Positions 8,707 through 57,880 of a DNA stretch of 64,000 bases are shown here, in pieces. This DNA comes from Prevotella sp. GTDB taxonomy: Bacteria > Bacteroidota > Bacteroidia > Bacteroidales > Bacteroidaceae. A program made the position numbers and the translations under genes. Where the stretch lies: positions 1 through 64,000 of the forward strand of contig JAFUFJ010000006.1 of assembly GCA_017469955.1 (NCBI GenBank), written 5' to 3'. Positions within the stretch are counted from its first letter, which is position 1, and the number at the start of each line of letters is the position of its first letter. The notes under the pieces were generated by a model. It was not told the origin of the DNA, did no database searches, and saw nothing but the letters and a program-made list of their open reading frames with translations.

Positions 8707-8813
8707 GAGAAAGCTAAGAGTTCAGCCCGAGAAGTCTTAGCTTTCTTCCTGATAACTCTATCATTTCTCGACAATAACCCTATGACTTCTCACCCTGAAC
8801 TCTTAGCTTTCTC
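8707..8813. repeat. 22-bp phased mosaic array (locus 4), five modules with perfect terminal inverted repeats
   Basis: Modules start at 8707, 8729, 8751, 8773 and 8795, exactly 22 bp apart. Module 1 (GAGAAAGCTAAGAGTTCA) and the end of module 5 (TGAACTCTTAGCTTTCTC, 8796-8813) are perfect 18-bp reverse complements. Module 2 pairs with the mirror of module 4 at 14 of 18 positions. The whole 107-bp element is thus a large inverted repeat between the convergent dusB and GH130 genes. The rest of this 382-bp gap holds only weak GC-rich hairpins. Confidence 0.85.
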
Positions 8814-8942
8814 GGCGTGAGGGAGGAAGGCCTGCCAGGAGAACGGGAAGACTTCTTCCGCCTTTTCCTTACGAAAAATGGGAGCAGCGCTAAGGCATGC
8901 TCCCATGAAAAAGGTGTTTTCCGTCCTGGCGGAACGATGGTT

Positions 8943-10058
8943 TCAGGGCTCGTATACGGCCACGCTGACGCGCGAGTCGGCGCATCCATAGTAGAGATAC
9001 CACTTGCCGTTGTGGGGAACGAGGCCTTCGATGAAGACGGTGCCTGCGGGATACTGGCCACTACGCTCAAAGTCGGCTTCGGGAATGAAGAACGGAATGT
9101 CGAGCCGGCCGATGACTTTTGTGGGGTCTTTCTTAGAGAACAGCACCTGTCCGGCACAATAGCTGTTGGCCGTATAGCGCTTGTCGCGGCGTTCGTCGGC
9201 GCGGTTCTTGCCGTTGTACATCAGCAGGATGCCGTGCTTGGTGACGATAGCTGGAGGTCCACACTCAGTGAGATGGCTGTCAAAGAAGCCGTCGCGAGGC
9301 TCGATGACTTTGAGAAAGTCGCCTTTTTCGTCGAGCATCGGGGTCCAGTTGACAAGGTCTTCAGAGGTGGCTACGTTGACAAACTGCTCACCCCAGTACA
9401 TCCAATACTTGTCATTGATCTTGGCAATGACCTGCTTTCCGTTCTTCATCTTGGTGACAATGGAGGCCGATTTGGAGAATTCGTTTTGGAATCGTCCGCC
9501 ATAAGCCTTTCCGAAGGCCAGCCCGTGCTTGGTCCATGTGACGAGGTCGCGCGACGTAGCTACGGCTAATCGGGCCTGCTTGCGGTTCCATTGGGTGTAC
9601 ATCATGACGTAGAGTCCGTCTTCTGTCATGCATACTCGGGGGTCTTCGCAACCGCCGGGACATTCGTTTCCGGCCTGCGAGTCGGTGGCATCAGGGTAGA
9701 GAACGGGTGCCCCGTGGCGCACGAAGTGGAGTCCGTCGTCAGACGAGGCATAGCCAATACGCGAGGTTCGCGAGCCGATGCCGGTGGCAGAGTTGTCCTC
9801 AGCCCGGTAGAGCACAACGACTTTTCCGTTGAGAATGGTAGCTGCGGGGTTGAAAGTGTCGCTTTCTTCCCATTTCATCGGGCGTCCTTGCATGGGACAG
9901 AAGAACTCGAAGTCGGCCGAAGGGGCAATGACAGGATTGATGCCGGCAGGCCGTTGCCAGCCTGTCCAGGCCCATTTGTATTCCTTGCCGGCCAGCGGTT
10001 GGGCCGACGAAGCTAATGCCGTCAGGGCAAAAGCAAGGGTGAAAAGAGTCTTTTTCAT
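8943..10058 (-). CDS. GH130 family beta-mannoside phosphorylase/hydrolase, secreted
   Basis: 371 residues with signal peptide MKKTLFTLAFALTALASSAQ. A five-bladed propeller of GH130 type is indicated by WEESDTFNPAATILNGKVVVLYRAED, IGYASSDDGLHFVRH, the signature GGCEDPRVCMTEDGLYVMMYTQWN and GCADSRVSVAVYEP. GH130 enzymes phosphorolyse or hydrolyse beta-mannosides such as Man-beta-1,4-GlcNAc or beta-1,2-mannan. The signal peptide argues for a periplasmic hydrolase rather than a cytoplasmic phosphorylase. The start at MKKTLF (10058) was chosen because longer versions overlap the upstream GH92. It lies 10 nt after that GH92, as last gene of a three-gene operon. Confidence 0.88.
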   Translation of the reverse strand: MKKTLFTLAFALTALASSAQPLAGKEYKWAWTGWQRPAGINPVIAPSADFEFFCPMQGRPMKWEESDTFNPAATILNGKVVVLYRAEDNSATGIGSRTSRIGYASSDDGLHFVRHGAPVLYPDATDSQAGNECPGGCEDPRVCMTEDGLYVMMYTQWNRKQARLAVATSRDLVTWTKHGLAFGKAYGGRFQNEFSKSASIVTKMKNGKQVIAKINDKYWMYWGEQFVNVATSEDLVNWTPMLDEKGDFLKVIEPRDGFFDSHLTECGPPAIVTKHGILLMYNGKNRADERRDKRYTANSYCAGQVLFSKKDPTKVIGRLDIPFFIPEADFERSGQYPAGTVFIEGLVPHNGKWYLYYGCADSRVSVAVYEP

Positions 10059-10068
10059 ATCGGTTGTT

Positions 10069-12210
10069 TTATTCAAATGAAGGCGGAACAACGCTTGTTC
10101 CCCATTTCTTGTCAGGTTTGGCAGCAGTCTTGAACTGCAGCGTTCCGCCGTTTTGGAGGTCTTCCCATGGCAGCCAAGTGCCGTCAACGGCAGTTCCGTT
10201 GAGCTTGAGGCTCGTGGTGTAGATGTTCTTCTCAGAGCCTCCTTCGATCAAGAGGGTGCGTCCTTTGGGCAGACGGACGGTCACTTTCGAGAAGACAGGG
10301 GTGTTGACAGCGAATCCTGCCACACCTGGTATCTCGGGATAGAGGCCGATACAGGCAAAGACATACCAGGCTCCCATCGAGCCAAGGTCGTCATTGCCGG
10401 GCAGACCGTTGATCTTGTCGGTGTATTGTTCGTTAAGAGTACGGTTGACAACCTGTTGGGTTTTCCACGGCGAACCTGTCCAGTTATATACCCAAGGGAC
10501 ACCCCACGAGGGCTCATTGCCCGATGCAAACCACTCGTCTCCATAGCCGGCGTCAAGACGTTGGAAGTATTCGTCGAGGCGCTTTTCTGCGTTTTCACGT
10601 CCGCCAATGATATCAATCAGCCCCTTGATATTATAAGGCACCATCCAGAAATAGTCCTTATAGGTGGCTTCTCGCCAGTCGTCGCCCTGGTGTTTCCATG
10701 ACCCGTCGGGGTTGCGAGACTGCAGCCAACCGGTTTCAGGGTTAAAGAGATTCTTCCAAGAGCGGGCAAAATGGAAGTATCGCCACGAGGCAAATTCGTC
10801 GCCTACGGCATGAAGCGCGTACTGTCCGATGGCAAAGTCGGCCGACGTGTATTCGAGTTGCATCGAAGCATGCATGTATCCCTTTTCGAGATATTGTTTC
10901 AAATAGGGTCGCGTCTCTTCGTTCTGCGACTTCGAACCGGGCACTTCAGCCCCTTTCTTCATGATTTCGAACAACGGCTTCGGGTCGTAGTTGCGCGCAC
11001 CGAAAGCCCATGCATTGGAGACAAGTATCGATGTGGGATCGCCTTGCATGATGCCGGTTTCGACGTTGGCCAGCACCCATCGCGGGAACGATCCGCCAGA
11101 CTGCAGGGCGAAATCCTGATGGGACAACACGATGTCTGACGCCACATCTGGCTCAAGAATGGAAAGCAATTGTATCTGAGTTCGGTAGGTATCCCAGTTG
11201 CTGAACTGTGAATACTGGGTGGCGTTGGTCTTGTGGATGTTCCAGTCGGCTCCCATGTATTCGCCGTTGACGTCAGAGGAGATGCTGGGATGGATGAAGG
11301 CTCGATAGAGATGTGTGTAGAATTGTTGGGTACGACTCTCGGTGCTCCCCTCTACTTCTATCAGCGAAAGATAGTCATTCCAACGCTGTTCGGCCTTCTG
11401 TCTGACGGCAGAAAAGTCCCAGGAAGGATTCTCTGCCCGGAGGTTTTCCTTGGCATTCTCTACGGAAACATAAGATACTCCGACCTTGTATTGGATGGTA
11501 TGCTGCCGTTTAGTGTCGAAGGTGAAATAGACGCCGGAATACTCTCCTTCGGCAAAAGTGTCGCCCGGATGCAGCACAGTGCGCTTCCAAGTCCCCGATT
11601 CTACGGCCGGAACATCGAATTCGGCAGCAAAATATACTTTGTAAGGAGTGCGGATTCCACAGAAGTATCCTCCGTCAGCATACCCTTCACAAGTGCTCGG
11701 TGAGGTGATGACAACGGCTGCTTCTGTAATATGTGTGGCAGCTATGCCAGCTCCGATGATGACAGTTCCGAAGTCCTCGTCGCTGGGATATTCATAGGAA
11801 GCCATGCCTGTGCGTGGCGTAACAGTGAGGCGGGCTTGGATGTCGTCTTGCACTTTTGCCTCATAATAGCCGGCATGGCCATGCTCGTCAGAGACATTGA
11901 TGCGTGCGTTACGTATCTTGTCAGGAGATACTTTCAACTTCCCCTTGACAGGAAACGTAGGGAAGTTGCCCATGTGCTCGCAGCCTCCGCCGCTGTTTTG
12001 GTTAATAACGAAGCCTGCCTGTTTGCAGAAATAAGACGGTGTAAACTGAACCATGCCGTGCGGATAGGTGGCTCCGGGATAGAGATATCCTGATGTAAGT
12101 CCAGCTCCCTTGGTACCAATCAGGGTATTGACTTTCTCAGAATAGTTGGTCTGCGCAAAGCTGATAAAGCAAACTCCGGCAGCAATGACTGAAAGAACTG
12201 TTTTCTTCAT
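10069..12210 (-). CDS. GH92 alpha-mannosidase (first paralogue)
   Basis: 713 residues with signal peptide ending near SFAQ. GH92 enzymes are calcium-dependent exo-alpha-mannosidases acting on N-glycans and yeast mannan. Signatures: VNTLIGTKG, GATYPHGMVQFTP, CEHMGNFPTFPVKG, FSNWDTYRTQ, WLQSRNPDGSW, GLPGNDDLGSMGAWYVFACIGLYP and a C-terminal beta domain. It sits 40 nt downstream of a second, longer GH92 and 10 nt upstream of GH130, so the three are probably one transcript. The bond specificity (alpha-1,2, 1,3, 1,4 or 1,6) cannot be read from sequence. Confidence 0.92.
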   Translation of the reverse strand: MKKTVLSVIAAGVCFISFAQTNYSEKVNTLIGTKGAGLTSGYLYPGATYPHGMVQFTPSYFCKQAGFVINQNSGGGCEHMGNFPTFPVKGKLKVSPDKIRNARINVSDEHGHAGYYEAKVQDDIQARLTVTPRTGMASYEYPSDEDFGTVIIGAGIAATHITEAAVVITSPSTCEGYADGGYFCGIRTPYKVYFAAEFDVPAVESGTWKRTVLHPGDTFAEGEYSGVYFTFDTKRQHTIQYKVGVSYVSVENAKENLRAENPSWDFSAVRQKAEQRWNDYLSLIEVEGSTESRTQQFYTHLYRAFIHPSISSDVNGEYMGADWNIHKTNATQYSQFSNWDTYRTQIQLLSILEPDVASDIVLSHQDFALQSGGSFPRWVLANVETGIMQGDPTSILVSNAWAFGARNYDPKPLFEIMKKGAEVPGSKSQNEETRPYLKQYLEKGYMHASMQLEYTSADFAIGQYALHAVGDEFASWRYFHFARSWKNLFNPETGWLQSRNPDGSWKHQGDDWREATYKDYFWMVPYNIKGLIDIIGGRENAEKRLDEYFQRLDAGYGDEWFASGNEPSWGVPWVYNWTGSPWKTQQVVNRTLNEQYTDKINGLPGNDDLGSMGAWYVFACIGLYPEIPGVAGFAVNTPVFSKVTVRLPKGRTLLIEGGSEKNIYTTSLKLNGTAVDGTWLPWEDLQNGGTLQFKTAAKPDKKWGTSVVPPSFE

Positions 12211-12250
12211 AGATATGGTAAATTAATAGCGTATGGCATAGAATAATGCC

Positions 12251-14539: not shown

Positions 14540-14883
14540 ATTGTTCTGGTTTTTGTTGTTTCTATTTTTATAATATGACGTTCCAAATCCCTTGATACAC
14601 TAAAACGGCGCGTGGCAAAAAGGCTTAGTTAGCTGCTTTTAAGAAAAATTTAGTACTCAGGCGCGTTTCCCTTCCGTATGGCTTTTGGCTGCTTCCACCG
14701 TGCTGAAGGGTACAGATGAAGCAGGCACTCCTGCCTTGTCGTGCCGGGAGAAACATTAAAAAAACAAAAAGTACTCTTGGATTTTGGGTTTTGAACCGTC
14801 TTTTTTCAAGAAGCACGCCATCCCTGTGTGGGCAGGAAGCGCATGGCTTATGTCAGAGTAACATTTAAAATCACGATACCACA

Positions 14884-16968: not shown

Positions 16969-17004
16969 GTCCACTGAAACTCAAAGCAATAGAACTGTAA
17001 ATGC

Positions 17005-17042
17005 AAAGGACGGACGCAGGGAAAGGCGTCCGTCCTTTTGTG
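17005..17042 (+). terminator. Rho-independent terminator after the SASA esterase
   Basis: Perfect 13-bp stem AAAGGACGGACGC (17005-17017) / GCGTCCGTCCTTT (17026-17038) with an 8-nt loop and TTTTGTG tail. It is 37 nt after the stop codon. Confidence 0.93.
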
Positions 17043-17062
17043 TAGGGCTGCGGGCGGTGCCC

Positions 17063-17081
17063 GAGAAAGCTTAGCTTTCTC
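17063..17081. repeat. Single 22-bp-type module (locus 5)
   Basis: GAGAAAGCTTAGCTTTCTC, a near-perfect 19-bp palindrome of the GAGAA/TTCTC family. The following 22 bp (GACATCCGTAGGTCGTC) keep GAC/GTC inverted arms but not the sequence. It sits just after the SASA terminator. Confidence 0.6.
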
Positions 17082-17255
17082 AGCGACATCCGTAGGTCGT
17101 CTTCCTGAAAAGCCTTTTCCTTCTTCTTGTGAAAGAGGCGGATAAGGGCCGGCAAAACGGCGTTCTTCCGATGAAATGGGAACTTTCTGCCGTCAGGAAG
17201 ACTGCCGGCCGTGAAAAAACTTGGCAAAAGTTTCGCTACTCTTCAAAAGTTGAAG

Positions 17256-17263
17256 TAACTTTG
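17256..17263 (+). promoter_or_regulatory. -7 promoter box for the M16 peptidase, 7 nt from the ATG
   Basis: TAACTTTG matches the -7 consensus. Transcription would begin about at the start codon, so the mRNA is probably leaderless or nearly so. Confidence 0.7.
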
Positions 17264-17270
17264 CAGACTG

Positions 17271-18500: not shown

Positions 18501-18556
18501 ATCCAGCCAAATTTCTTCTTTCTTCGGTAGCAGTCGTCCCTGCTCTCCGACTTCTC

Positions 18557-18690
18557 GTTTCATGAAACCGAAGCGGCTTGTTTCCGTACAGCAGCCGTGT
18601 ACGGAGCATACATCTGCGGAATACGAAGCATACATCTATGAAATATGGAGCATACATGACAGATGTACGCTCCATATCTCTATGCTTTCC
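18557..18690. repeat. 22-bp phased mosaic array (locus 6), CATAC type
   Basis: Repeats of the type GAGCATACATCTRYGRAATA start at about 18580, 18602, 18624, 18646 and 18668, each 22 bp apart; an extra quasi-palindrome (GTTTCATGAAAC) is in phase at about 18557. The last module is diverged. The array begins 56 nt after the M16 stop and lies between convergent genes. Confidence 0.75.
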
Positions 18691-18714
18691 CTCGGGGAAG
18701 TGTTGGCTTCGCCG

Positions 18715-20223: not shown

Positions 20224-20271
20224 AGCTGTGTACTGTTTGAATCGTTGTTGGTGGTCAATGGCCTCACTGGC

Positions 20272-21684: not shown

Positions 21685-21784
21685 TGTTTTATTTATTCTT
21701 GAAGCCAGTGTCTAAAGGGTGTCTGGTGGTTTTCTCGGGAGTTTTCCCTGCTCTTTTCCGGAGGCTCTGCAGACCTTTGTTTAC

Positions 21785-21891
21785 GAGATAGCTATCCTTT
21801 TAGGGTGAGAATGCTAAGACTTCATGGCGAGAAAGGATAGGTTTATTGACAATAACTCTATGACTTCTCGGGTTGAAAGGATAGCTTTCTC
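21785..21891. repeat. 22-bp phased mosaic array (locus 7), five modules
   Basis: Module starts 21785, 21807, 21829, 21851, 21873. Module 5 (TGAAAGGATAGCTTTCTC) is the exact reverse complement of module 1 of the array at 37193 and nearly of module 1 here. Module 4 has the AATAACTCTATGACTTCTC form also seen at 8773. The array lies 55 nt past the minus-strand SGNH stop, inside the CAZyme cluster. Confidence 0.85.
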
Positions 21892-21946
21892 AAAGGCCTG
21901 GACACATGTCCTCGGCGTGAAGGGCGGGTGAAGAGCGTGCCTTCTC

Positions 21947-23332
21947 CTACAGTCGCTGGAGCGAAATGTGGTGGAGGCGCGGTCGGTTGAGGCGGTAGAT
22001 GTCGTCGACAATTGACTGCATGTAGCTTTCGCAGGCACGTTTCACGGCGGGATTCTCCATCTTGTAGTAGATGTCTCGGCGCGAAGCCAGCCACCAGTTG
22101 CCCTGCCGGTCGCGCTCATACATGGCATGCGCCTCGGGCGAAGCTACGTCGTTGATGCCGTTTTTCTTGAAATAGTCGAACTCTACCCATGCCCAGTCGC
22201 GCAGCCGACGCTCCATTTCCCAGCGGTCTTCGTTGAGAATCATCAGGCGACGGGCCTGCTGCATCTGCGGTGTCTGCATGTAGTCTGCCATATTGATGCC
22301 CTCGGCGAGCTGTTCGTGGGTGAGGGTGTCGATGGTGACTTCGTCGATTTTAAAGGCATATCGGCCTTTCTTCAGGTTGCCGACGGTGAGCAGTTCGGCA
22401 TTCATCTCACACTGGAAGTCGGGCACAAGTCGCGTGATTTGGCTCTGCGGACGCTTGAATTCCATACCGCCTCGGGCAATGGTGTCGAGCGGATAGGGCA
22501 GCGATTGGGCCAGATAGTCGAACTCTACTCGGTCGGGACCGGCTGCAAGATCGCTCACGGAGCAGCGCTCTGAGCGCAAGACGGCTTTCTTCCGGGCGTC
22601 AATCTGGATGTCGGCAACGGGCAGGTTGGCAAGGCCTTGTGCCTTCAAGACAAGGTAGGCCATGTACATATGGCCGTCGTTGTCGGGGTGAATGCGGTCG
22701 GGACCGCAGACGGTAAATGCCGAATCAGCCTGTTGGCGCTCTGTGTTCAAGGCAGTCATGGCTTCGTTGAAGTCGATGAACTCCCACCCGTTACGCTCGG
22801 CAGACTGCCTTTGCGTGTCGATCATACGGCGTATGATGTCGTTCCTCCGGGGATAGATATTGTTGTTGAAGCGCGAAGTCTGGTCGTAAGGCGAGGTGCC
22901 AACCTGCACGATGCGTGTTCCTTCAAGGGCGAGCAGCTGGCGCTCCATCTTCGCATAGTTGGCATTAGCGAGCGATACTCGTTGGTCGGCAAACTGCTGA
23001 GCGCTATCACTATAGAGCTCGAAATATCCAGAATCGTTCATGCCATAGGTAAGGAAGATGGTGTTTGGACGTCGCTCAATAACGTCGCCTTGCAGGCGAA
23101 GCTGAATCTCAGTCGATGTGTCTCCGCCGATGCCGCAGTTCATTATTTCGAGGCGTTGCTCGGGGAAGCGCGTCATATAGTAGAGCCAGATGTAGGAATG
23201 ATAGTGGCCTCCATCGGTGATACTGTTGCCAACAAAGGCTACACGGTCGCCGTTCTTGAAGGGCTTCAGGGTCTGCGACGTGGCATACAGGGCTGCCGTC
23301 ATGAGGCAAAATGTGAAAAGAATTCTTCGCAT
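21947..23332 (-). CDS. Secreted SGNH/GDSL-type esterase, paralogue 1
   Basis: 461 residues starting MRRILFTFCLMTAALYATSQ (signal peptide). SGNH blocks: Ser37 in VAFVGNSITDGG, NCGIGGDTSTEI (block II), TYGMNDSGYF (block III Asn) and the catalytic Asp/His pair in DRIHPDNDGHMYMAYLVLKAQG. The C-terminal ~180 residues form an extra helical domain shared with the paralogue at 27130. SGNH proteins in such clusters usually remove acetyl or other acyl groups from polysaccharides. MRRILF was chosen as start since longer versions run into the upstream esterase gene. It lies 23 nt downstream of that esterase. Confidence 0.85.
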   Translation of the reverse strand: MRRILFTFCLMTAALYATSQTLKPFKNGDRVAFVGNSITDGGHYHSYIWLYYMTRFPEQRLEIMNCGIGGDTSTEIQLRLQGDVIERRPNTIFLTYGMNDSGYFELYSDSAQQFADQRVSLANANYAKMERQLLALEGTRIVQVGTSPYDQTSRFNNNIYPRRNDIIRRMIDTQRQSAERNGWEFIDFNEAMTALNTERQQADSAFTVCGPDRIHPDNDGHMYMAYLVLKAQGLANLPVADIQIDARKKAVLRSERCSVSDLAAGPDRVEFDYLAQSLPYPLDTIARGGMEFKRPQSQITRLVPDFQCEMNAELLTVGNLKKGRYAFKIDEVTIDTLTHEQLAEGINMADYMQTPQMQQARRLMILNEDRWEMERRLRDWAWVEFDYFKKNGINDVASPEAHAMYERDRQGNWWLASRRDIYYKMENPAVKRACESYMQSIVDDIYRLNRPRLHHISLQRL

Positions 23333-23355
23333 GATGATGGTTTTTTCTTGGGTGA

Positions 23356-24240: not shown

Positions 24241-24341
24241 TTTCTCGAATATGATATGTTCTTTTATTTAATGACGGCCGTCTGGCTCTTTCCCACGAAG
24301 AAAAGTCATTCCTCTCCAAGGGAGCACTGCCGGTTTGCCAG

Positions 24342-27129: not shown

Positions 27130-28512
27130 TTACTTTATTTTCTCGATGCGTATGTGTCGTGTCTGGGGTTTGTTGACCTGATAGATGCGATCGACGAGCA
27201 GTTTCATTTCGTCTTGATAGGCTTCACGCACTTCTTGATGGATCATCTTGTCGTAAAGTTCGCGTCTTGCGGCCACCCATCCGTCTTTTTTCTGGCCTTC
27301 GCGGAACACTTCTGCAGCATGTTCGTCGTTGACGTCGAGCAGACCGCGGGGCATGAAGAAGTTGTATTGCAGCCAAGCATAGTCGCGGAAGCGACGTTCT
27401 GTCTCCCAACGTTCCTCGTTCAACGCCATCACTTTGCAGGCTTGCTGGTATTGAGGGGTGTGTCGGTAGGTGGCAAGGTTGACGCCTTCCTGCAGCTGGA
27501 CGGCCGAAAGCGTGTCGATAAGCACCTCGTCGATGAGCAGTCGGTATTGTCCTTTCAGTCCCTTCACGGTGAGTTGTTCGCGATTCATCTCCTCGATGAA
27601 CTCCGGACAGAACTTCACGATGTCGGCCTGTGGGCGCTTGAATCCCCAGCCATGGGCAATGGTGTCGAGCGGATAGGGCAGCGATTCGGCCAGATAGTCA
27701 AACGTTGTCACGCCGTTCTGGCGTCTGACGTTCGTCACTTTGCAGTTCTCTTCGCCGGTGACTCTTCCCTTTCCGTCGATAGTAACCTCAGCCACGGGCT
27801 TGCCGTCCATGCCCTGAGCTTTCAGGAAGAGGTAGGCCATATACATATGACCGTCGTTATCGGGGTGTACACGGTCGTTGCCTATGAGGGTGAATTTCGG
27901 GTCTTTAGCCTGTTCGCGCAGGTTAACCTCGGTCATAGGTCTGTTGAAGTCCACCATTTCCCATCGGTTAGCCTTGGCCGCAGAGTCTTGGAAAGCCACG
28001 ATCTTCTGCATGTAATCGTTCTTGTTTTTGAAGATATTGTCGTTGAAAGTCGACGTCTGGTCATAGGGAGATGTACCGATCATGATCTTGCGTATGTCGC
28101 TCGCTCCTTTCAGTCTTTTCTCTATTTCGAGGAAGTTTTCCCGGCTCTTTGCCACCTGCTTGTTGCCGAAATCCTCGGCATTGTCGCCGTTATACTCGAA
28201 GTAGCCCGAGTCGTTCATGCCGAAGGTGAGGGTGATCACTGTCGGGCGTTTGGCAAACACGTCGCCGTCAAGGCGCTTCAGAATGTTCTCGGCAGTGTCG
28301 CCTCCTATGCCGCAATTGGCCATCCACAGGCGCTCTTCGGGGAAGTGTGTCATGTAGTAGAGCCAGATATACGAGTGATAGTGACCGCCGTCGGTGATGC
28401 TGTTTCCTACGAAAGCCACGCGGTCGCCGGCTTTAAAGGGCGCCACTTGCTGTGCAAGACTCTGGCTGACAGACAGTGAAGCTAGCAGGCATGAGAGAAT
28501 GATCTTCTTCAT
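27130..28512 (-). CDS. Secreted SGNH/GDSL-type esterase, paralogue 2
   Basis: 460 residues, signal peptide ending SLAQ. It has the same blocks as the paralogue at 21947: VAFVGNSITDGGHYHSYIWL, NCGIGGDTAENIL, TFGMNDSGYFEYN and NDRVHPDNDGHMYMAYLFLKAQG, and the same C-terminal helical domain (LAESLPYPLDTIAHGW, ERWETERRFRDYAWLQYNFF). The two copies lie in one cluster separated by GH2 and a CE1-like esterase, so duplication was not a simple recent tandem event. It is the first enzyme gene after the ECF sigma factor, with a 189-nt gap. Substrate unknown, probably an acylated glycan. Confidence 0.85.
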   Translation of the reverse strand: MKKIILSCLLASLSVSQSLAQQVAPFKAGDRVAFVGNSITDGGHYHSYIWLYYMTHFPEERLWMANCGIGGDTAENILKRLDGDVFAKRPTVITLTFGMNDSGYFEYNGDNAEDFGNKQVAKSRENFLEIEKRLKGASDIRKIMIGTSPYDQTSTFNDNIFKNKNDYMQKIVAFQDSAAKANRWEMVDFNRPMTEVNLREQAKDPKFTLIGNDRVHPDNDGHMYMAYLFLKAQGMDGKPVAEVTIDGKGRVTGEENCKVTNVRRQNGVTTFDYLAESLPYPLDTIAHGWGFKRPQADIVKFCPEFIEEMNREQLTVKGLKGQYRLLIDEVLIDTLSAVQLQEGVNLATYRHTPQYQQACKVMALNEERWETERRFRDYAWLQYNFFMPRGLLDVNDEHAAEVFREGQKKDGWVAARRELYDKMIHQEVREAYQDEMKLLVDRIYQVNKPQTRHIRIEKIK

Positions 28513-29489: not shown

Positions 29490-29589
29490 ACCCTTTTTTG
29501 GAAAATCGGAAAAGAAGGAAAACTTCAAAAATCGCCCATTTCATCGGAAAAAGGCTGCTGCGATCTTCGTTTTCGTCCCTTTTCCTGTT

Positions 29590-29740
29590 GGGTATCAAAT
29601 GCGTACTGTTTGCGTATCGAGTTTGATGTTCTCCAGAAAGCTATCCTTTCAGCCCGAGAAGTCTATGGGTTCTTCGCAACAACCCTTAGCTTTCTCGTCC
29701 AGAATCCTAAGGCTTCTCGGGATGAATGGATAGCTTTCTC
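29590..29740. repeat. 22-bp phased mosaic array (locus 8), GCGTA and GAGAA modules
   Basis: Module starts 29590, 29612, 29634, 29656, 29678, 29700 and 29722, all 22 bp apart. The first two are GCGTA-type, the last five GAGAA-type (for example GAGAAGTCTATGGG at 29656 and TGAATGGATAGCTTTCTC ending at 29740). It is the clearest array that does not follow a stop codon; it sits upstream of the HU-like gene. Confidence 0.8.
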
Positions 29741-30047: not shown

Positions 30048-30509
30048 ATGGCAGTATTCTACAAACTCTATCAGGAGAAACGCACCGGTTCGAAGAATCA
30101 AGGCAAGTGGTATGCACGTGCAAAGATGACCAACACGGTCTCTCTGCAGCAGCTTGCACAGGAGATTGAGTCCAATGTCAGTGTCAAGGAGAGCGATGTT
30201 TATGCCGTGCTCATCGAGCTTGTCAACGTGATGAAGCGCGAGTTGCAGAACTCTCACTCAGTGAAGCTCGACCGACTGGGCATCTTCAGCGCCGGCATCA
30301 CTACCAAGCCCGCGGCTACTACCGACACCTTCACTCCCGAGAAGCACATCGTCGGCACGCACATCAACTTCCGTCCCGAGCAGAAATACCTCAGCGGGCG
30401 GGGCAAAGGAAAGCGTGCTACCACGATGATGTTGAGCGGAGTAAAGCTTTCGGCCTTGCCAAAGAACGCCGTCGAGGATGCCGAAGAAGAGGCCGAGAAC
30501 AACGACTAA
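30048..30509 (+). CDS. HU-like DNA-binding protein (HU-HIG family)
   Basis: 153 residues. MAVFYKLYQEKRTGSKNQGKWYARAKMTNTVSLQQLAQEIE...VKESDVYAVLIELVNVMKRELQNSHSVKLDRLGIFSAGI matches the Bacteroidota HU-like/histone-like family (sometimes called HU-HIG), longer than true HU and with a variable tail. The C-terminal ~25 residues are acidic (VEDAEEEAENND). It is thought to bind DNA in the nucleoid or at polysaccharide loci; its exact role is unknown. A 32-residue smalltalk gene follows after 26 nt, a pairing common in this phylum. Confidence 0.9.
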   Translation: MAVFYKLYQEKRTGSKNQGKWYARAKMTNTVSLQQLAQEIESNVSVKESDVYAVLIELVNVMKRELQNSHSVKLDRLGIFSAGITTKPAATTDTFTPEKHIVGTHINFRPEQKYLSGRGKGKRATTMMLSGVKLSALPKNAVEDAEEEAENND

Positions 30510-32628: not shown

Positions 32629-32757
32629 GAGAAAGGGCCACCTTCTCGGCGAGAAGTCTTAGCTTTATGGCCCAGAATCCTATCCTTTGTCAGCCAGAAC
32701 CCTATCCTTTCTCGTGCAGAATCCACAGGTTTCTCGTGCATAACCCATAGGTTTCTC
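32629..32757. repeat. 22-bp phased mosaic array (locus 9), six modules
   Basis: Module starts 32629, 32651, 32673, 32695, 32717, 32739. Modules read GAGAAAGGGCCACCTTCTC, GAGAAGTCTTAGCTTT, three CAGAA-type, then CATAACCCATAGGTTTCTC. The array begins only 26 nt after the DUF4105 stop, where no classical terminator exists. Confidence 0.85.
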
Positions 32758-33904: not shown

Positions 33905-34055
33905 GAGAAAGCTAAGGTTTCTGCCCGAGAAGTCTATGGTTTCTGGGTGAGAAAGCTATGGGTTATTGGGCATAAAGCTAAGACTTCTCACCCTGAAAGG
34001 GCAGGTTTCTCGGCCAAGTCCCACAGGATGTTGCCCGCGAAAGCAGAGTTTCTTT
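33905..34055. repeat. 22-bp phased mosaic array (locus 10), seven modules
   Basis: Module starts 33905, 33927, 33949, 33971, 33993, 34015, 34037. The first five follow the usual order (GAGAAAGCTAAGG, GAGAAGTCTATGG, GAGAAAGCTATGG, CATAAAGCTAAG, TGAAAGGGCAGG); the last two are diverged but in phase. With the terminator and promoter it accounts for most of the 427-bp gap. Confidence 0.85.
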
Positions 34056-37192: not shown

Positions 37193-37320
37193 GAGAAAGC
37201 TATCCTTTCAGCCCGAGAAGTCTATGGTTTCTGGGTGAGAAAGGATAGCTTTCTCGGTCATAACTCTATGGGTTCTCGGGCTAAAAGCTTAGCTTTCTCA
37301 GGCTGAAGGGAGGGGAGGCT
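37193..37320. repeat. 22-bp phased mosaic array (locus 11), six modules
   Basis: Module starts 37193, 37215, 37237, 37259, 37281, 37303. Order: GAGAAAGCTATCCTTTCA, GAGAAGTCTATGGTTTCT, GAGAAAGGATAGCTTTCTC, CATAACTCTATGGGTTCTC, CTAAAAGCTTAGCTTTCTC, then a partial CTGAAGGG. The remainder of the 371-bp gap is a G-rich stretch and the next promoter. Confidence 0.87.
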
Positions 37321-37398
37321 GCGGGAAAAGTGGCGGGAAGATTGGGAAAAAGATGCTTTTTGCTCCGATGAAACGGCGCTTTTTTGCAGGAAAAGTTG

Positions 37399-37406
37399 TA
37401 ACTTTG
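37399..37406 (+). promoter_or_regulatory. -7 promoter box for the metallo-hydrolase/kinase/transporter operon
   Basis: TAACTTTG, with TTTTTGC 18 nt upstream, a good match to the -33/-7 pair. The leader to 37504 is about 95 nt. Confidence 0.7.
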
Positions 37407-37503
37407 CCCTTGATAAGTCTGTCGGAAGAGCCGGAGAACGGCGTCCGCTCAGCCGGCAAGGGCTTGTCGTTGTAGGAACAAAAGGCCGGAAGGCACGATC
37501 GCT

Positions 37504-40777: not shown

Positions 40778-40914
40778 CGGCGCGAGAGGTGCCTCTTGCC
40801 GGCTTGAAGACAGCGCTTCCTGCCCGTCAAGCGAAAGCCTTCAACGGCACGTCTCCCGTTCATGATGCATGAAACGCTGTCGTTGGACGGAAAGAACACA
40901 GCCCTTTCCCGTCC

Positions 40915-41020
40915 GTACACCATAGAGAAATGCTCCATACATGTGCTTGGTATGCTTCATACATCTATGATGTACGGACGAGAAGTCTTAGGTTTCTCAA
41001 GCAGAAGGGTGAGAAGCCTT
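40915..41020. repeat. 22-bp phased mosaic array (locus 12), CATAC and GAGAA modules mixed
   Basis: TAC of the first three modules falls at 40916, 40938 and 40960 (GTACACCATAG, CATACATGTGCTTGGTATG, CATACATCTATGATGTAC). A GAGAA module (GAGAAGTCTTAGGTTTCTC, 40980) and CAGAAGGG (41002) follow in near-perfect phase. It lies between the convergent symporter and LOG genes, in a 349-bp gap with nothing else I can identify. Confidence 0.78.
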
Positions 41021-41711: not shown

Positions 41712-41722
41712 CACGCAAATTT

Positions 41723-43591: not shown

Positions 43592-43603
43592 CATCATACA
43601 CCG

Positions 43604-43640
43604 AAAGCTGCCTTTTCACGACAAGAAGGGGCAGCTTTTC
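43604..43640 (+). terminator. Rho-independent terminator after the helicase
   Basis: Stem AAAGCTGCC (43604-43612) / GGCAGCTTT (43630-43638) with a 17-nt loop and TTC tail. It directly precedes the triple 22-bp repeat. Confidence 0.8.
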
Positions 43641-43645
43641 TGTTG

Positions 43646-43712
43646 TAAAACATCATCTTTTGGTCGGCAAAACATCATCTTTTGCTCTTCAATAGATCAT
43701 CTTTTGCCCCGT
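43646..43712. repeat. Three tandem 22-bp repeats, AAAACATCATCTTTTG type (locus 13)
   Basis: Units at 43647-43668, 43669-43690 and 43691-43712. Units 1 and 2 share the first 16 bases (AAAACATCATCTTTTG); unit 3 starts AATAGATCATCTTTTG. The last six bases of each unit vary. The arms AAAA/TTTT are inverted around CATCATC. Same period and same quasi-palindromic plan as the other arrays, but a different sequence. Confidence 0.85.
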
Positions 43713-43806
43713 AAACGGGCAGCCTTCCTGCCGTTGGGTGGGGCCAATCTTGCCGGCAAGGGCCATCTTTCTTGCAAGGAAGTTTTGCCGAATGCAAGAA
43801 AAGAGT

Positions 43807-43814
43807 TACTTTTG
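43807..43814 (+). promoter_or_regulatory. -7 promoter box for the SpmA/SpmB-like gene
   Basis: TACTTTTG, with TTTTGCCG about 20 nt upstream. ATG 43832 lies 17 nt downstream. Confidence 0.65.
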
Positions 43815-43831
43815 CAGGTAAATTTGGCGCA

Positions 43832-45064: not shown

Positions 45065-45128
45065 CAGACAACAGTACGGACAAGGGCACACGCTACACCA
45101 GGAAACGCCCGAAAAGACACAGAAAACT

Positions 45129-46616: not shown

Positions 46617-46647
46617 ATCATAGAACATACTTATATAATTACGCGAA

Positions 46648-48762: not shown

Positions 48763-48784
48763 GCAGAACGGTTTCCGACGAAAG

Positions 48785-48832
48785 AAACGGCTTGAAAACC
48801 TCTGAAACACAGGGTCTTCAAGCCGTTTTTCT
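48785..48832 (+). terminator. Rho-independent terminator after dpp7
   Basis: Stem AAACGGCTTGAA (48785-48796) / TTCAAGCCGTTT (48817-48828) with further partial pairing in the loop and TTTTTCTTT tail. It lies 22 nt after the stop. Confidence 0.9.
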
Positions 48833-48889
48833 TTGCCTTGCGGGTGGCGTTGGCAGTCTTTCTGCCCTTCACGTAAAACCTTTCCCTTT

Positions 48890-48996
48890 GAGAAAGCTAT
48901 GAGTTCAGCCCGAGAAGTCTTAGCTTTCTTGTCGAGAAACCTTAGCTTTCTCACCCAGAAAGCATAGACTTCTGACCCATAACCCTTAGCTTTCTC
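48890..48996. repeat. 22-bp phased mosaic array (locus 14), five modules
   Basis: Module starts 48890, 48912, 48934, 48956, 48978, exactly 22 bp apart. Module 2 (GAGAAGTCTTAGCTTTCT) is near the reverse complement of module 4 (CAGAAAGCATAGACTTCTG), giving the whole element an imperfect inverted symmetry. It lies between the convergent dpp7 and hybrid-regulator genes. Confidence 0.87.
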
Positions 48997-49058
48997 TGGA
49001 CGACGGGCGAAGGGTCAGTGGCGGAAGGGTGCAGGATGAGCGTCGGAAGGCGCCCGCC

Positions 49059-53066: not shown

Positions 53067-53338
53067 GGGTTCTGTTTTCTTGAGGTGTGCATTTTTATTG
53101 TCAGGGGACAGCATACTTGTAGTCATACATAAGAATACTGTTGTCAAAAAGAAGACGATTATGGACAGTTGTTCCATGAAAATGAAGACGTTTTGTCCGC
53201 ACAAAATAACCAATTTATTTTCATTCTGCCAAGAATCCGGCAGGAAAATTTCCGGAAGAGGGAAGAATCGTGTCTGACAACAAGTGCGGATGTCGCGTAA
53301 AATAAAGTTAATTACTCCCGTATTCAAGGCTTTTTAGC

Positions 53339-53346
53339 TAACTTTG
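53339..53346 (+). promoter_or_regulatory. -7 promoter box for the Ca-ATPase operon
   Basis: TAACTTTG, 9 nt before ATG 53356; a near-leaderless transcript is expected. The 289-bp divergent gap to the HTCS start holds no other clear signal. Confidence 0.65.
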
Positions 53347-53355
53347 CAACCGTCT

Positions 53356-55968
53356 ATGAGCAAGTCACAGGATAGGAATGTCGCAGGTTTGTCTTCCCTT
53401 CAAGTGGAAGAAAGCAGGCAAAAGTATGGGGAGAACACTTTGACTCCTCCGCCACAAGTGTCGGCATGGTCGCTCTATTTGGACAAATATCGCGATCCGA
53501 TCATTCAGATTCTTCTGGCAGCAGCAGCCGTTTCGTTGCTGTTGGCGTTTGTGGAAAACGACTTCATTGAGACCATAGGCATCATTATTGCCATATTCCT
53601 TGCGACGACAATCGGCTTCTGTTTTGAGCGCGATGCGGCTAAAAAATTCGACATTCTCAATGCTTTGGGTGAAGAACAGGCCGTGAAAGTGCGTCGCAAC
53701 GGGCATGTTATAGAGGTGCCCCGGCGTGAGATCGTCGTGGGAGACGTGGTGATGCTTGCGGTTGGCGATGAGATTCCTGCCGATGGAACATTGCTTTGGA
53801 GCATTGACTTGCAGGTTGACGAGTCGAGCTTGACAGGCGAATCGCTGGCGCATAAGTCAGTCATCAGCAGAGAAACCCCTGCAGATGCCGACGGCATTTA
53901 CCCTCCGAATCAGCTGTTACGCTCGTCAATGGTGCTCAGCGGCGAGGCCGAATATGAGGTGACTGCTGTCGGTGATGCCACAGAAATAGGAAGAGTGGCA
54001 CGGAAATCGACTGAGACAACCGACGTGAAAACGCCCCTTAATCAGCAATTAGAGCGCCTGGCGTCGCTCATTTCAAAGGTTGGTGCAGCCGTTGCTGTGC
54101 TGGCCTTTGTCTGTTTTCTGACTCATGACATCCTGTCGAACCCCACCATTTGGCAGCAGCATGACTGGCTGAAAATGGCAGAAGTGGTGTTGCGATACTT
54201 CATGATGTCGGTCACTCTCATCGTGATGGCTGTGCCTGAAGGTCTGCCTATGGCTGTCACGTTGGCCTTGGCCCTTAACATGCGTCGCATGCTGAAGAGC
54301 AATAATCTGGTGAGAAAGCTGCATGCCTGCGAGACAATGGGTGCGGTGACGGTTATCTGTACTGACAAAACAGGCACACTTACGTTGAATCAAATGAAGG
54401 CCGTTCATTACGGTTGTGACGACGAACGGGCCTTGTTGAAGGAGGTGATCCTGAACTCTACGGCCGAGTTAGATGGTCTTCATGGCATAGGAAACCCGAC
54501 AGAAGTGGCCATGTTGAGAGACTGCGATGCACATGACCTGGACTATAGGAAGGTGAGAAACGAGGGTGTGCTGCTTGACCGCCATCCCTTTACTACCGAA
54601 CGGAAGTATATGGCGTCGCTGTGGAACGACAGCGACACGGCGCTCTATGTCAAGGGAGCTCCCGAAGTCATGTTCTCTTTCTGCAGCATGACCGATGGCG
54701 AACGTGCCGAGAAGGCTGCGGAAATACGCCGATACCAGCAGAAGGGAATGCGCACGTTGGCTTTCGCTCATCGGCGAGATGTGTCAGCCATCACCTTGGA
54801 AAATCTTTCCTATGTCGGTTTTGTGGCTATCAGTGATCCTGTAAGAGAAGACGTGAAGCAGGCCGTCTGCGACTGCCGGAAGGCCGGTATTGAGGTGAAG
54901 ATAGTGACAGGCGACAATGCTTTGACGGCCATAGAGGTGGCTCGTCAGATAGGCATCTGGCATGAAAATGACGCATCTCACATGACGGGTGCCGACTTCA
55001 TGAGCCTCTCTGACGAGGAAGCCATGCAACGGGCCAGGGCTTTATGTGTGATGAGTCGTGCCCGTCCGGCTGACAAACAACGCCTTGTTGAGGTGCTTCA
55101 GAAGGCCGGAGAGGTGGTGGCTGTGACCGGCGACGGCACCAATGATGCCCCAGCTTTGCACCATGCGCATGTGGGATTGTCGCTTGGAAGCGGGACGAGT
55201 GTTGCCAAACAAGCATCAGACATCACGCTCATCGACGACTCGTTTGGCTCCATAGCACATGCTGTGATGTGGGGAAGGTCGCTCTATAAGAACATCCAAC
55301 GCTTCCTGTTCTATCAGCTGGTAGTCAATGTGGCAGCCTTGTTGCTGGTGCTTTGCGGATCGTTTGTGGGCACCGAGCTGCCCCTTACCGTGACGCAGAT
55401 TTTATGGGTGAACCTCATCATGGACACCTTTGCGGCCCTTGCTCTTGCCGCTCTTCCTCCGTCAAGGGAAGTGATGAACGAGCAACCGCGCAGCCGAGCC
55501 GACTTCATCGTCACCCCTTCGATGGGGCGCAGCATCCTTTTCTGTGGCATCGCGTTCTTCCTCGTGATGTTCGGTTTCCTGCTTTATTGTGAACGAAACG
55601 GTTCATCGGGCATCGACTTGCATGAGTTGACGCTCTTCTTTACTACCTTTGTCATGCTGCAATGGTGGAATCTCTTCAATGCAAAGACGCTCGGAAGCCG
55701 TCATTCGGCTTTCCGTCGACTGGCTGATGACCGCGGACTGTTGCTGGTACTGGCCACGATCATGGTCGGACAGGTGGCCATAGTAGAATGGGGAGGCAGC
55801 GTGTTCCGCACCATGCCCATCACCCTTCGCGAGTGGATCGTCGTCGTTCTTGCCACATCTGTGGTAATGTGGACGGGCGAAGCGATACGGCTTGTGAAGC
55901 GGATGCTTTACAGAAACCGTCGTGAAGCCATTGCTTCGTCTGACGGAATATTATCATCATCATTGTAA
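53356..55968 (+). CDS. Calcium-transporting P-type ATPase (PMCA type)
   Basis: 870 residues. ATP-driven cation pump of P2 type. Motifs: N-terminal cation-ATPase domain (SLQVEESRQKYGENTLTPP), actuator DESSLTGES, membrane PEGLPMAVTLALA, phosphorylation site CTDKTGTLT, nucleotide-domain KGAPE, and hinge GDGTNDAPAL, with ten expected helices and NLIMDTFAALALAALPP near the C-terminus. It probably exports Ca2+ from the cytoplasm. The position of ATG 53356 directly after the -7 box fixes the start. ribF starts 19 nt downstream. Confidence 0.94.
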   Translation: MSKSQDRNVAGLSSLQVEESRQKYGENTLTPPPQVSAWSLYLDKYRDPIIQILLAAAAVSLLLAFVENDFIETIGIIIAIFLATTIGFCFERDAAKKFDILNALGEEQAVKVRRNGHVIEVPRREIVVGDVVMLAVGDEIPADGTLLWSIDLQVDESSLTGESLAHKSVISRETPADADGIYPPNQLLRSSMVLSGEAEYEVTAVGDATEIGRVARKSTETTDVKTPLNQQLERLASLISKVGAAVAVLAFVCFLTHDILSNPTIWQQHDWLKMAEVVLRYFMMSVTLIVMAVPEGLPMAVTLALALNMRRMLKSNNLVRKLHACETMGAVTVICTDKTGTLTLNQMKAVHYGCDDERALLKEVILNSTAELDGLHGIGNPTEVAMLRDCDAHDLDYRKVRNEGVLLDRHPFTTERKYMASLWNDSDTALYVKGAPEVMFSFCSMTDGERAEKAAEIRRYQQKGMRTLAFAHRRDVSAITLENLSYVGFVAISDPVREDVKQAVCDCRKAGIEVKIVTGDNALTAIEVARQIGIWHENDASHMTGADFMSLSDEEAMQRARALCVMSRARPADKQRLVEVLQKAGEVVAVTGDGTNDAPALHHAHVGLSLGSGTSVAKQASDITLIDDSFGSIAHAVMWGRSLYKNIQRFLFYQLVVNVAALLLVLCGSFVGTELPLTVTQILWVNLIMDTFAALALAALPPSREVMNEQPRSRADFIVTPSMGRSILFCGIAFFLVMFGFLLYCERNGSSGIDLHELTLFFTTFVMLQWWNLFNAKTLGSRHSAFRRLADDRGLLLVLATIMVGQVAIVEWGGSVFRTMPITLREWIVVVLATSVVMWTGEAIRLVKRMLYRNRREAIASSDGILSSSL

Positions 55969-55987
55969 AAAGAAACGCATATCGCCC

Positions 55988-56986
55988 GTGAAAACCATTT
56001 ATTACAACCGGCAGTCCATTCCCTCGTTGCCGTCGTCAGTGGCTACGATAGGGATGTTTGACGGTGTTCATCGCGGTCATCGCTACCTCATCAGCCAGTT
56101 GGTGGCCGAGGCTCGCCGGCGCGACATGTTGTCGATGGCGGTCACGTTCAGTGTTTCTCCGCGCGAGATAGTCAGTCCGTGCGAGGCTCCTCTCTTGCTG
56201 ACATCGCTGGAAAAGCGCCTCCAACTTCTTGAGCAGGCTGGTCTTGACGTGGCTGTTGTGGTTGATTTCAATGAGACAACGTCCGGTCTCTCAGCCTCAG
56301 AATTCATGTCGGACGTGCTGGGAAGACAGCTGGGTGTGGCCTGTCTGATGATTGGTTTCAACAACCGTTTCGGCCACAGGTCGCCCGATTTTGTCCGGGA
56401 GCACGGCCATGAAGAAGGCTTTGCCGACTATGTTGGCTATGGCCGGCGGTGCGGAATAGAGGTGTTGCAGGCCGAGGAATATGCCGTGGGCGATGCCCAT
56501 CTGAGCTCGTCGTCGGTCAGAAGAGCCCTTCTGAAGGGCCATATCGATGAGGCCAACCGCTCTCTGGGCTATGTGTTCAGCCTTGCGGGCACGGTGGTTC
56601 ACGGCGAGCATGTGGGCACAGCTCTTGGATTTCCCACGGCCAACCTCCGTCTGTCCGGCAGGGAGGTGGTGCCGAAGCCGGGCGTCTATGCCGTGGAAGT
56701 GGCTGTAGGGCAGTCGGAAAAGCGGTGGACTGGCATGATGAACATTGGCAGCCGACCCACATTCGGAGGCCATACGACCACGATTGAGGTCCACCTTTTC
56801 GACTTCTCGGGCGACCTCTACGGCCGTCAGCTCGAAGTGTTCGTGCTCTGGAGGGTGCGCGACGAGCGGAGGTTCGACAGCAGTTCGGCGCTGGCCGGGC
56901 AGCTGAAGGCCGACAGAGAGGCGATAGAACAACGATTGAGAAACAACGGATATGAAGAAGAAAACCATCCTGAGAACGCTTGCTGA
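55988..56986 (+). CDS. ribF: Bifunctional riboflavin kinase / FAD synthetase
   Basis: 332 residues with a GTG start at 55988; no ATG lies between the previous stop and the conserved N-terminus, and the ATG at 55922 would lie inside the ATPase gene. The FAD-synthetase domain has SSVATIGMFDGVHRGHRYLI (HxGH-like) and FNNRFGHRSPDF; the riboflavin-kinase domain has GTALGFPTANL, PKPGVYAVEV, MNIGSRPTFGG and TIEVHLFDFSGDLYG. It makes FMN and FAD from riboflavin. Its end overlaps the CPBP protease gene by 35 nt. Confidence 0.93.
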   Translation: MKTIYYNRQSIPSLPSSVATIGMFDGVHRGHRYLISQLVAEARRRDMLSMAVTFSVSPREIVSPCEAPLLLTSLEKRLQLLEQAGLDVAVVVDFNETTSGLSASEFMSDVLGRQLGVACLMIGFNNRFGHRSPDFVREHGHEEGFADYVGYGRRCGIEVLQAEEYAVGDAHLSSSSVRRALLKGHIDEANRSLGYVFSLAGTVVHGEHVGTALGFPTANLRLSGREVVPKPGVYAVEVAVGQSEKRWTGMMNIGSRPTFGGHTTTIEVHLFDFSGDLYGRQLEVFVLWRVRDERRFDSSSALAGQLKADREAIEQRLRNNGYEEENHPENAC

Positions 56987-57749
56987 CGTGGTGATCTACC
57001 TCGTGGCGTTCCTTTTTATTCAGCTTTTTGTGACCCTGATAGCCCAGCACTTCTATGCCGACCTGGCCGCCAATCCCACGGCTTTGGTGGTGACACAGGC
57101 TGTGAGCAGCGTGCTGACAGTCGTTCTTTTCCTCGCACTGCGATGGGTTTCAGTCAGCGGCAACTATATTCGCACCCGTCCTTGGGGCGTGCTCGTGTGG
57201 GCTTCGCTGCTGACCTTCGGCACGATCATTCCCTCGGAATGGCTGGCCGAAGCCATGAACATTGACGCACCCGAGGACTATGAGCAGCTGATGCTTCGAA
57301 TCATGTCGAGCCGATGGGGCTATCTTCTGATCGGCATTCTGGTGCCTGTAGCCGAGGAAATGGTGTTTCGCGGAGCCATCTTGCGCAGCCTCCTGAGCAT
57401 GTTCAACCGCCAAAGCCACTGGGTAGCCATCGTCTTGTCGGCCATGATCTTCGGTGCAGTACACGGCAATCTGGCCCAGTTTGTCCACGCCACCCTGCTC
57501 GGCCTGCTGCTCGGATGGATGTACTATCGCACGGAAAGCATCTTTCCCGGCATCGTAGTCCATTGGGTCAACAACTCGATAGCCTACATTATCTTCCTGC
57601 TGATGCCTGGCATGACCGACGCACGCCTCATCGACCTGCTGCAGGGCGACCACCGTCGCGAGCTGCTCTACGTGGCCTTCTCGCTCATGATCGTGGCGCC
57701 TTGCCTCGTACAGCTGCACCTTCGCATGCGGCGTGCGGGCGGGAAATAG
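56952..57749 (+). CDS. CPBP family intramembrane glutamic endopeptidase
   Basis: 265 residues with six to eight membrane segments. The Abi/CAAX-protease motifs are present: EEMVFRGAILRSLL (EExxxR), IFGAVHGNLAQFVHATLLGLLLG (His in FxxxH) and HWVNNSIAY. Members process prenylated proteins in eukaryotes; bacterial members have been linked to bacteriocin immunity and protein processing, but the substrate here is unknown. It overlaps ribF by 35 nt, so it is translationally linked. A 22-bp array starts 24 nt after the stop, with no classical terminator. Confidence 0.9.
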   Translation: MKKKTILRTLADVVIYLVAFLFIQLFVTLIAQHFYADLAANPTALVVTQAVSSVLTVVLFLALRWVSVSGNYIRTRPWGVLVWASLLTFGTIIPSEWLAEAMNIDAPEDYEQLMLRIMSSRWGYLLIGILVPVAEEMVFRGAILRSLLSMFNRQSHWVAIVLSAMIFGAVHGNLAQFVHATLLGLLLGWMYYRTESIFPGIVVHWVNNSIAYIIFLLMPGMTDARLIDLLQGDHRRELLYVAFSLMIVAPCLVQLHLRMRRAGGK

Positions 57750-57773
57750 GGCAGAGGGCTCCCCGGTCTGCCT

Positions 57774-57880
57774 GAGAAAGCTAAGGTTTCAGGGTGAGAA
57801 TTCATAGACTTCTGGGTGAGAAAGGATAGACTTCTCGCCCATAACCCATAGACTTCTCGGGCTGAAAGGATAGCTTTCTC
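57774..57880. repeat. 22-bp phased mosaic array (locus 15), five modules
   Basis: Module starts 57774, 57796, 57818, 57840, 57862. Order: GAGAAAGCTAAGGTTTCA, GAGAATTCATAGACTTCT, GAGAAAGGATAGACTTCTC, CATAACCCATAGACTTCTC, CTGAAAGGATAGCTTTCTC. It lies between the convergent CPBP and sigma-partner genes. Confidence 0.87.

Follow-up and report, generated by a model that had tools for sequence, protein, structure and literature searches.

PINSR, a 188-bp repeat of Prevotella intermedia/nigrescens, is present in 177 and 184 copies that are intergenic, were judged non-coding, are lineage-specific and are of unknown function (Naito 2015, PMC4755523). BrickBuilt, a miniature inverted-repeat transposable element (MITE) of Porphyromonas gingivalis, is described as 23-nt direct repeats without spacers, with a leader and a tail with terminal repeats, in 19 copies in ATCC 33277 (PMC4596501). 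Here we describe arrays of quasi-palindromic modules set in a strict 22-bp phase in a 64,000-base window of a Prevotella sp. genome (the window being the whole stretch of DNA analysed, contig C11:1-64000 of the source genome G000, which has 2,259,279 bases in 22 contigs and a completeness of 75.6%). PINSR is the closest published repeat, and the arrays are likewise intergenic and high-copy; BrickBuilt shares with them intergenic tandem repeats of ~22 bp in a Bacteroidales genome. An earlier note on this DNA had recognised the arrays and missed the palindrome formed by the whole core, the cores that mix two module types, the register that runs past the core and the recurrence of the same lag, with other sequences, in relatives.

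A palindromic core of five modules in 22-bp phase

Pairs of relaxed modules in the window occur 33, 27, 19 and 11 times at lags of 22, 44, 66 and 88 bp, whereas all five first-order Markov control sequences gave no pair at lag 22 and none at lag 44. A 22-bp spacing no more frequent than in shuffled DNA would have refuted the arrays; the pairs in the window clearly exceed the controls, the wider scan having covered 20% of G000. Tandem Repeats Finder (TRF) independently finds period-22 arrays. The exact spacing previously reported at 8707, 21785, 32629, 33905, 37193, 48890 and 57774 was reproduced. An exact search for GAGAA-N8-TTCTC, which returned 8 places in G000 and 3 in the backward control, was uninformative because the true modules have N9.

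Cores were surveyed in 461,164 bp of G000 (~20% of the genome) and at 17 further G000 loci with a position weight matrix that was seeded with seven window copies and then refined on this sample. The reversed control consisted of the same sequences read backward, not complemented, with the matrix in one orientation. The matrix found 76 distinct cores and none in the reversed sequences. The core is composed of five 19-bp quasi-palindromic modules (M1–M5) and four 3-bp spacers, giving 107 bp, and seven window arrays align without gaps across the 107 columns. The core is palindromic overall, with M1 mirroring M5, M2 mirroring M4 and M3 mirroring itself. The partly conserved module order noted earlier, with a CATAAC type fourth and a TGAAAGG type fifth, is indeed kept and is fixed by this whole-core palindrome.

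AA at module positions 4–5 and TT at positions 15–16 are found in 91–99% of cores. The centres CTAAG, CTATG, GATAG, CTTAG, CATAG and CTATC make up 321 of the 380 modules and amount to CTNAG with one side relaxed, while at positions 6–8 (12–14 on the other strand) the words AGC, GTC, AGG, CCC, CTC and ACC account for 658 of the 760 half-sites. Adjacent half-site letters are strongly dependent, GTC occurring 138 times against 37 expected and CGC once against 55. Selection by the matrix raises the frequencies of common letters inside the core and acts column by column, so that this dependence is not created by selection alone.

A second module type, with CATAC or CGTAC arms, has the same length and spacer and a similar centre. 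Chains of either type numbered 85 in the 461 kb, comprising 59 with GAGAA modules only, 24 mixed and 2 with CATAC modules only, although some of the mixed chains rest on weak modules; the arrangement G-C-C-C-G, with GAGAA-type outer modules and CATAC-type modules in the middle three places, was seen in 9 of the 85. Pairing between the arms of one module exceeded that of shuffles in M2 (z 2.9) and M4 (z 4.4), pairing of arms across spacers showed no excess over shuffles (z −2.3 to 0.5), and CATAC-type modules have both arms of that type. We therefore read the module as the unit of the array, one in which both arms switch type jointly.

Within the window, full five-module GAGAA cores are located at 8707–8813 (107 bp), 21785–21891, 29634–29740, 33905–34011, 37193–37299 (the top model score), 48890–48996 and 57774–57880. 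The arrays had been said to hold five to seven modules; most consist of the five-module core, and the GAGAA-type array at 32629–32757, for which TRF is among the bases, has six. Mixed arrays are found at 460–566, where two GAGAA-type and then three CATAC-type modules share a single 22-bp phase, and in the order G-C-C-C-G at 2007–2113 (the middle three modules being CATAC-type), at 4383–4489 (the first outer module being weak) and at 40892–40998. A CATAC-type array in the order C-C-C-C-G with a weak last module occupies 18585–18691, again with TRF among its bases. A third module type, AAAACATCATCTTTT, forms the array at 43602–43711 (TRF among its bases), in which three clear modules from 43646 are preceded by two weaker ones in register, and is also present in G010, the genome of a relative. 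An isolated module at 17063–17081 is a perfect palindrome. In the earlier list of loci, the array placed at 29590 in fact begins at 29634 and that placed at 18557 at 18585. GAGAA is the main type as stated, but the loci at 460, 2026, 4402, 18585 and 40915 hold or are CATAC/CGTAC-arm modules and that at 43646 is the third type.

The middle three modules at 4405–4467 are almost identical to those at 2029–2091. The two near-identical CATAC-type cores to which they belong (2007–2113 and 4383–4489) bracket minus-strand genes in 2133–4231; the GAGAA cores, by contrast, have diverged. Elsewhere in the window, the genes at 21947–23302 and 27130–28512, separated by a few kb, are paralogues that both carry GDRVAFVGNSITDGGHYHSYIWLYYMT in their N-termini.

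Intergenic placement and the register beyond the core

Genes were called with a purpose-built simple hexamer-based predictor. With overlaps of up to ~30 bp at the edges allowed, none of the 59 cores in contiguous G000 sequence lies inside a predicted gene, so the claim that all arrays are intergenic holds for full cores. It holds less strictly under a loose chain search (at least three modules with at most two mismatches each), which takes in weak three-module chains and several arrays per gap; here 6 of 77 chains fell inside a predicted gene or overlapped one. The description of the modules as quasi-palindromic and not coding was borne out. The 59 cores are distributed over every gap type (21 convergent, 15 divergent and 23 tandem), at a median distance of 114 bp from the stop codon and 192 bp from the start codon. 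By extrapolation from 59 cores in 461 kb, G000 contains ~290; a model search of G000 that scored 150 of 1,308 candidates gave at least 150 matches, with both strands of the palindrome counted.

TAnnTTTG is the −7 element of Bacteroidetes. Core gaps contain 51 gene-facing boxes of this kind, of which 47 lie between the array and the start codon, 4 lie behind the array and none lies inside it; only 3 of the 47 intervening boxes are within 75 bp of the array. A promoter and terminator scan of 45–60 kb found 11 and 16 sites, respectively, compared with 10.0 and 14.5 in shuffles.

The phase of the core continues into its flanks. To the left of 75 cores, TT recurs at −8, −30, −52, −74 and −96, and to the right AA recurs at +7, +29, +51, +73 and +95. 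At intergenic positions in the first five flank units, these frequencies are 0.31–0.52 for TT and 0.29–0.54 for AA, compared with 0.02–0.08 off register. The core-near half of the unit is preferred in the first three flank units (0.42–0.54 near, 0.13–0.24 far), and the signal fades outward. An example lies to the right of the 37193–37299 core, where 37303–37412 carries a weak register with AA near positions 4–5 of successive 22-bp units. The flanks lay outside matrix selection, and the choice of orientation by the matrix cannot produce this polarity because TT on the left and AA on the right are unchanged under reverse complementation.

Intergenic DNA as a whole exhibits the same register, with AA–AA correlation peaks at 22, 44, 66, 88, 110, 132, 154 and 176 bp and AA–TT peaks at 11, 33, 55, 77 and 99 bp. 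When the cores were blanked, lags 22, 44, 66, 88 and 110 were still the top five of lags 13–120 in the 58 core-bearing gaps, and the same five lags also ranked highest in 111 gaps that measure 100 bp or more and lack a full core. Half-sites thus alternate every 11 bp, in agreement with the earlier suggestion that a protein bound to such an array would lie on a single face of the DNA.

The same lag with other sequences in relatives

We compared G000 with genomes of relatives labelled G006, G010, G012, G016, G025, G030 and G031, of which G025, G030 and G031 come from other families. In a sequence-free test, the pooled intergenic spectra of G006, G016 and G012 are highest at lag 22, which, judged from the spectrum alone, also leads in a 40-kb sequence of Prevotella sp. 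oral taxon 299 F0039 (L224). Record NC_022111.1 carries no annotation over the stretch taken. G010 has individual 22-bp arrays; two of the four lag-22 matches in the G010 scan were runs of N. The 19 + 3 plan is visible in G006, mostly with 4–6 modules (21 rows, some of which are overlapping frames of one array). At position 12749 of L085 (G006:C106), tandem 22-bp units of CTCAAATTCTTGATTTTTAATT form another 22-bp family of this genome, one with weaker palindromy.

The nearest relatives of the G000 DusB protein belong to Prevotella, Segatella and Hoylesella (79–82% identity), which marks G000 as a genome of Prevotella type. Among 80 Prevotellaceae dusB loci (1.43 Mb), a lag-22 self-match was found in 42 of 480 intergenic regions, from 26 loci; lag 22 was the commonest, with 33 regions for lag 44 and 18 for the next lag. 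In the averaged spectrum of the 80 loci, lag 22 ranked third after 8 and 7. The module sequences at these loci differ from those of G000 and include GAAACGGCCCGTTTC, AAAAGGCAGCCTTTT, GTAGTGACACTAC, AATATGGGCCATATT and others, some of which, by eye, have a G000-like AAR..CTNAG..YTT centre. Eight of nine dyad pairs were reached by 26% of the 42 lag-22 regions, compared with 6% of 156 other-lag regions and 1% of permuted units; most lag-22 regions are therefore not strongly palindromic. The 107-bp model was searched in 348 same-genus genomes (G000 among them, drawn from a larger group) with filters that drop weak matches, and it matched at E ≤ 1e-6 in 9 of them, the 8 besides G000 carrying weaker, diverged versions; of the nine stretches viewed, two (L204 and L205) missed the array owing to contig ends.

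Outside the family, lags 21, 42, 63, 84 and 105 are among the eight highest in G025, and no lag-22 region was found in the small samples of G030 (100 kb) and G031 (40 kb). The 21-bp-lag arrays of G025, which belongs to another Bacteroidales family, are intergenic (L206–L210, joined positions 29577 and 57586), and one of them has the palindromic unit TTAATAGTTATTAA. A distant blastn search of a phage collection with one array gave no match, and viral contigs gave no match to the GAGAA pattern. Four viral-collection contigs (L225–L228) contain a G006-type 22-bp pair and may be host DNA or proviruses.

Candidate mechanisms and known systems

The sites are dyad-symmetric and lie in a single helical phase, as would those of a dimeric-protein array. 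On these sequence features, we consider it about an even chance that the modules are sites of a cooperative dimeric DNA-binding protein that nucleates on the core and extends along intergenic DNA. Each 19-bp module would be the binding site of one sequence-specific dimer, and the dimers would sit 22 bp, or two turns, apart on one face and in mutual contact, with half-sites at 11 bp in alternating orientation. The five strong modules would serve as a core for nucleation where transcription units meet, and further dimers could spread outward from it over weak in-register sites; half-sites alternating at 11 bp, a strong core and weaker, core-near-biased sites running outward from it are what cooperative, spreading dimers would be expected to use. 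At least two specificities (GAGAA and CATAC), probably belonging to paralogues with the same geometry, may be able to co-occupy one core, and the binding protein would be fast-evolving. The arrays sit away from promoter boxes and between units in all orientations, a placement that suggests they act as boundaries or in topology and less as operators or terminators, and a likely architectural role would be to coat, insulate or topologically separate adjacent transcription units. More tentatively, and with somewhat less than even confidence, we propose a chromosome-wide boundary system of Prevotellaceae, in which fast-evolving paralogous dimers would form filaments in a 22.0-bp palindromic register from five-dimer cores readable by different paralogues, the geometry being kept while the recognition sequence turns over between species.

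Several observations weigh against this proposal. Matrix selection inflates the conservation seen within the core, intramodule arm pairing was without excess in M1 (z −0.75), M3 (z 1.5) and M5 (z 0.9), and the −7 box numbers are raw counts. No binding protein was found; G000 has 2 Lrp/AsnC and 7 HU-HIG matches. The gaps without a full core that display the register may contain CATAC-type or weaker arrays. Coding DNA is slightly raised at lag 22 (0.255 versus a median of 0.244, z 3.5, with gaps at 0.31–0.36), and flank positions predicted as coding reach 0–0.33 (n 2–39) against a coding background of ~0.05, so the register is not strictly limited to gaps; this flank signal possibly reflects spill into gene ends or errors in predicted gene starts. 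Among the relatives, G016 is weak by AA correlation, two pooled G010 spectra gave no clear lag-22 peak and G006 showed no clear flanking register. At dusB, the one orthologous boundary examined, an array was present in 5 of 47 testable loci (33 of the 80 having no testable gap), which is near the overall 42 of 480 and represents no enrichment.

A gene at 30048–30509 of the window matches the HU-HIG family (PF18291), a model that also matches ordinary HU, and is a possible lead to a binding protein.

A first alternative, which we regard as unlikely, is that the arrays are a selfish palindromic family resembling repetitive extragenic palindromes (REP) and bacterial interspersed mosaic elements (BIME), propagated by a transposase able to recognise the 22-bp geometry, with each species having its own expansion. 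High copy number, intergenic position, palindromy and sequences that differ between species would all fit, and PINSR shows that amplification of an intergenic repeat is possible in Prevotella (PMC4755523). Pairwise identities among the cores are spread more widely than among module-shuffled cores (standard deviation 0.105 versus 0.066), and the cores are therefore not fully independent. Core-bearing gaps are also longer, as they would be after insertion (medians of 348/371/634 bp versus 127/50/312 bp, or 220–320 bp longer by class), although gaps too short to contain a core sit in the comparison group; this survey counts gaps (58 with a core), whereas the placement survey counts cores (59). 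Against such an origin, G000, at the completeness given above, has no match to Y1_Tnp, the family of the REP-associated tyrosine transposase (RAYT). The core-adjacent flanks share no more 2–9-bp ends than shuffled flanks, giving no sign of target duplication there, though the true element ends may lie elsewhere. The 76 GAGAA cores have a mean identity of 0.69 and a maximum of 0.935, without a near-identical pair, no end motif is evident in the core flanks, and the register carries on through the flanks and is seen in gaps that lack a full core. Taken together, the identity, target-duplication, RAYT and end-motif results lower the odds of a mobile origin.

Slightly more doubtful is a second alternative, in which the DNA is wrapped by gyrase or by an architectural protein resembling HU, the alternation of AA and TT at 11 bp acts as a bending signal, and the arrays are strong sites for a topoisomerase or for wrapping, placed between transcription units. 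Gyrase binds the BIMEs of E. coli. The AA/TT steps recur at 11-bp intervals as far as 176 bp, and among gaps of at least 107 bp a core is present in 20 of 37 convergent gaps compared with 38 of 129 others (Fisher p 0.01). HU and HU-HIG proteins are several per genome, with the 7 matches in G000 and 2 to 30 in same-genus relatives, counts in which ordinary HU is also matched. Bending alone, however, needs neither the alternating orientation nor the restricted words nor the species-specific arms.

That the arrays act as RNA, in the form of tandem hairpins or terminators in 3′ ends, is very improbable. The modules are quasi-palindromic and the cores lie close to stop codons, and the earlier note had allowed for an RNA hairpin in each module. 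This idea was not supported: module positions 6–8/12–14 exhibit no compensatory pairing (z −2.2 to +0.3 across the five modules), and this lack of covariation at the module centre speaks against RNA hairpins. The similarity of a core to its own reverse complement (0.658) barely exceeds that to the reverse complements of other cores (0.644), the long-hairpin test gave z 1.7, leaving long or local hairpins unsupported, and 15 of the 59 cores lie in divergent gaps. Rfam yielded no match at the gathering score over the whole window. Neutral tandem duplication of a 22-bp unit by replication slippage, followed by decay, would account for the tandem spacing and the weak outer units and is equally improbable given the different module at each of the five positions, the palindromic core, the G-C-C-C-G replacement, the restricted words and the polarity of half-sites in flanking units one to three.

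If the proposed dimer array and boundary system are real, abundant gut, rumen and oral bacteria would carry a chromatin-like layer, encoded in the sequence, at the boundaries of their transcription units, one easily overlooked because spacing rather than sequence is conserved. Such a layer would offer a direct handle on the insulation of neighbouring bacterial genes and on fast change of DNA-recognition specificity, as well as a method, namely to look for a conserved lag rather than conserved letters. Even as selfish repeats, the arrays would make up a repeat class whose geometry outlasts its sequence.

Among known systems, REP/BIME elements with their RAYT resemble the arrays as high-copy intergenic palindromes in species-specific families. 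REP is defined as a high-copy extragenic palindrome of 20–40 bp, whereas the present module measures 19 bp and its core 107 bp; the arrays further differ in the lack of a RAYT match in G000, in the five-module 22-bp array and in a register that passes beyond the element. The core consensus, compared at its start alone, begins with neither of the REP end tags GTAG and CGTC. The 10–11-bp A-tract periodicity of bacterial genomes (PMC3940949) is similar in its helix-phased AA/TT, and the arrays depart from it in their period of 22, alternating AA and TT, palindromy, cores and words; the main text of that source does not contain the word Prevotella. Across literature on 22-bp, palindromic and intergenic repeats, Prevotella, Bacteroidetes, REP/RAYT, periodicity and nucleoid proteins, no such register appeared in titles or abstract starts, a coverage with subscription papers mostly outside it. 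Plasmid iterons and ParR-type arrays are regular, with units one or two helical turns apart. They differ from the present arrays, which occur in many chromosomal copies at gene boundaries and have alternating half-sites. PINSR is described without terminal inverted repeats (PMC4755523), whereas the core here is palindromic, and for this reason the arrays are not filed as PINSR; no 22-bp phase is mentioned for PINSR, which was compared by its description. In our reading, what sets the arrays apart is that a conserved geometry goes together with sequences that change, modules that can be exchanged and a register spread widely through intergenic DNA.

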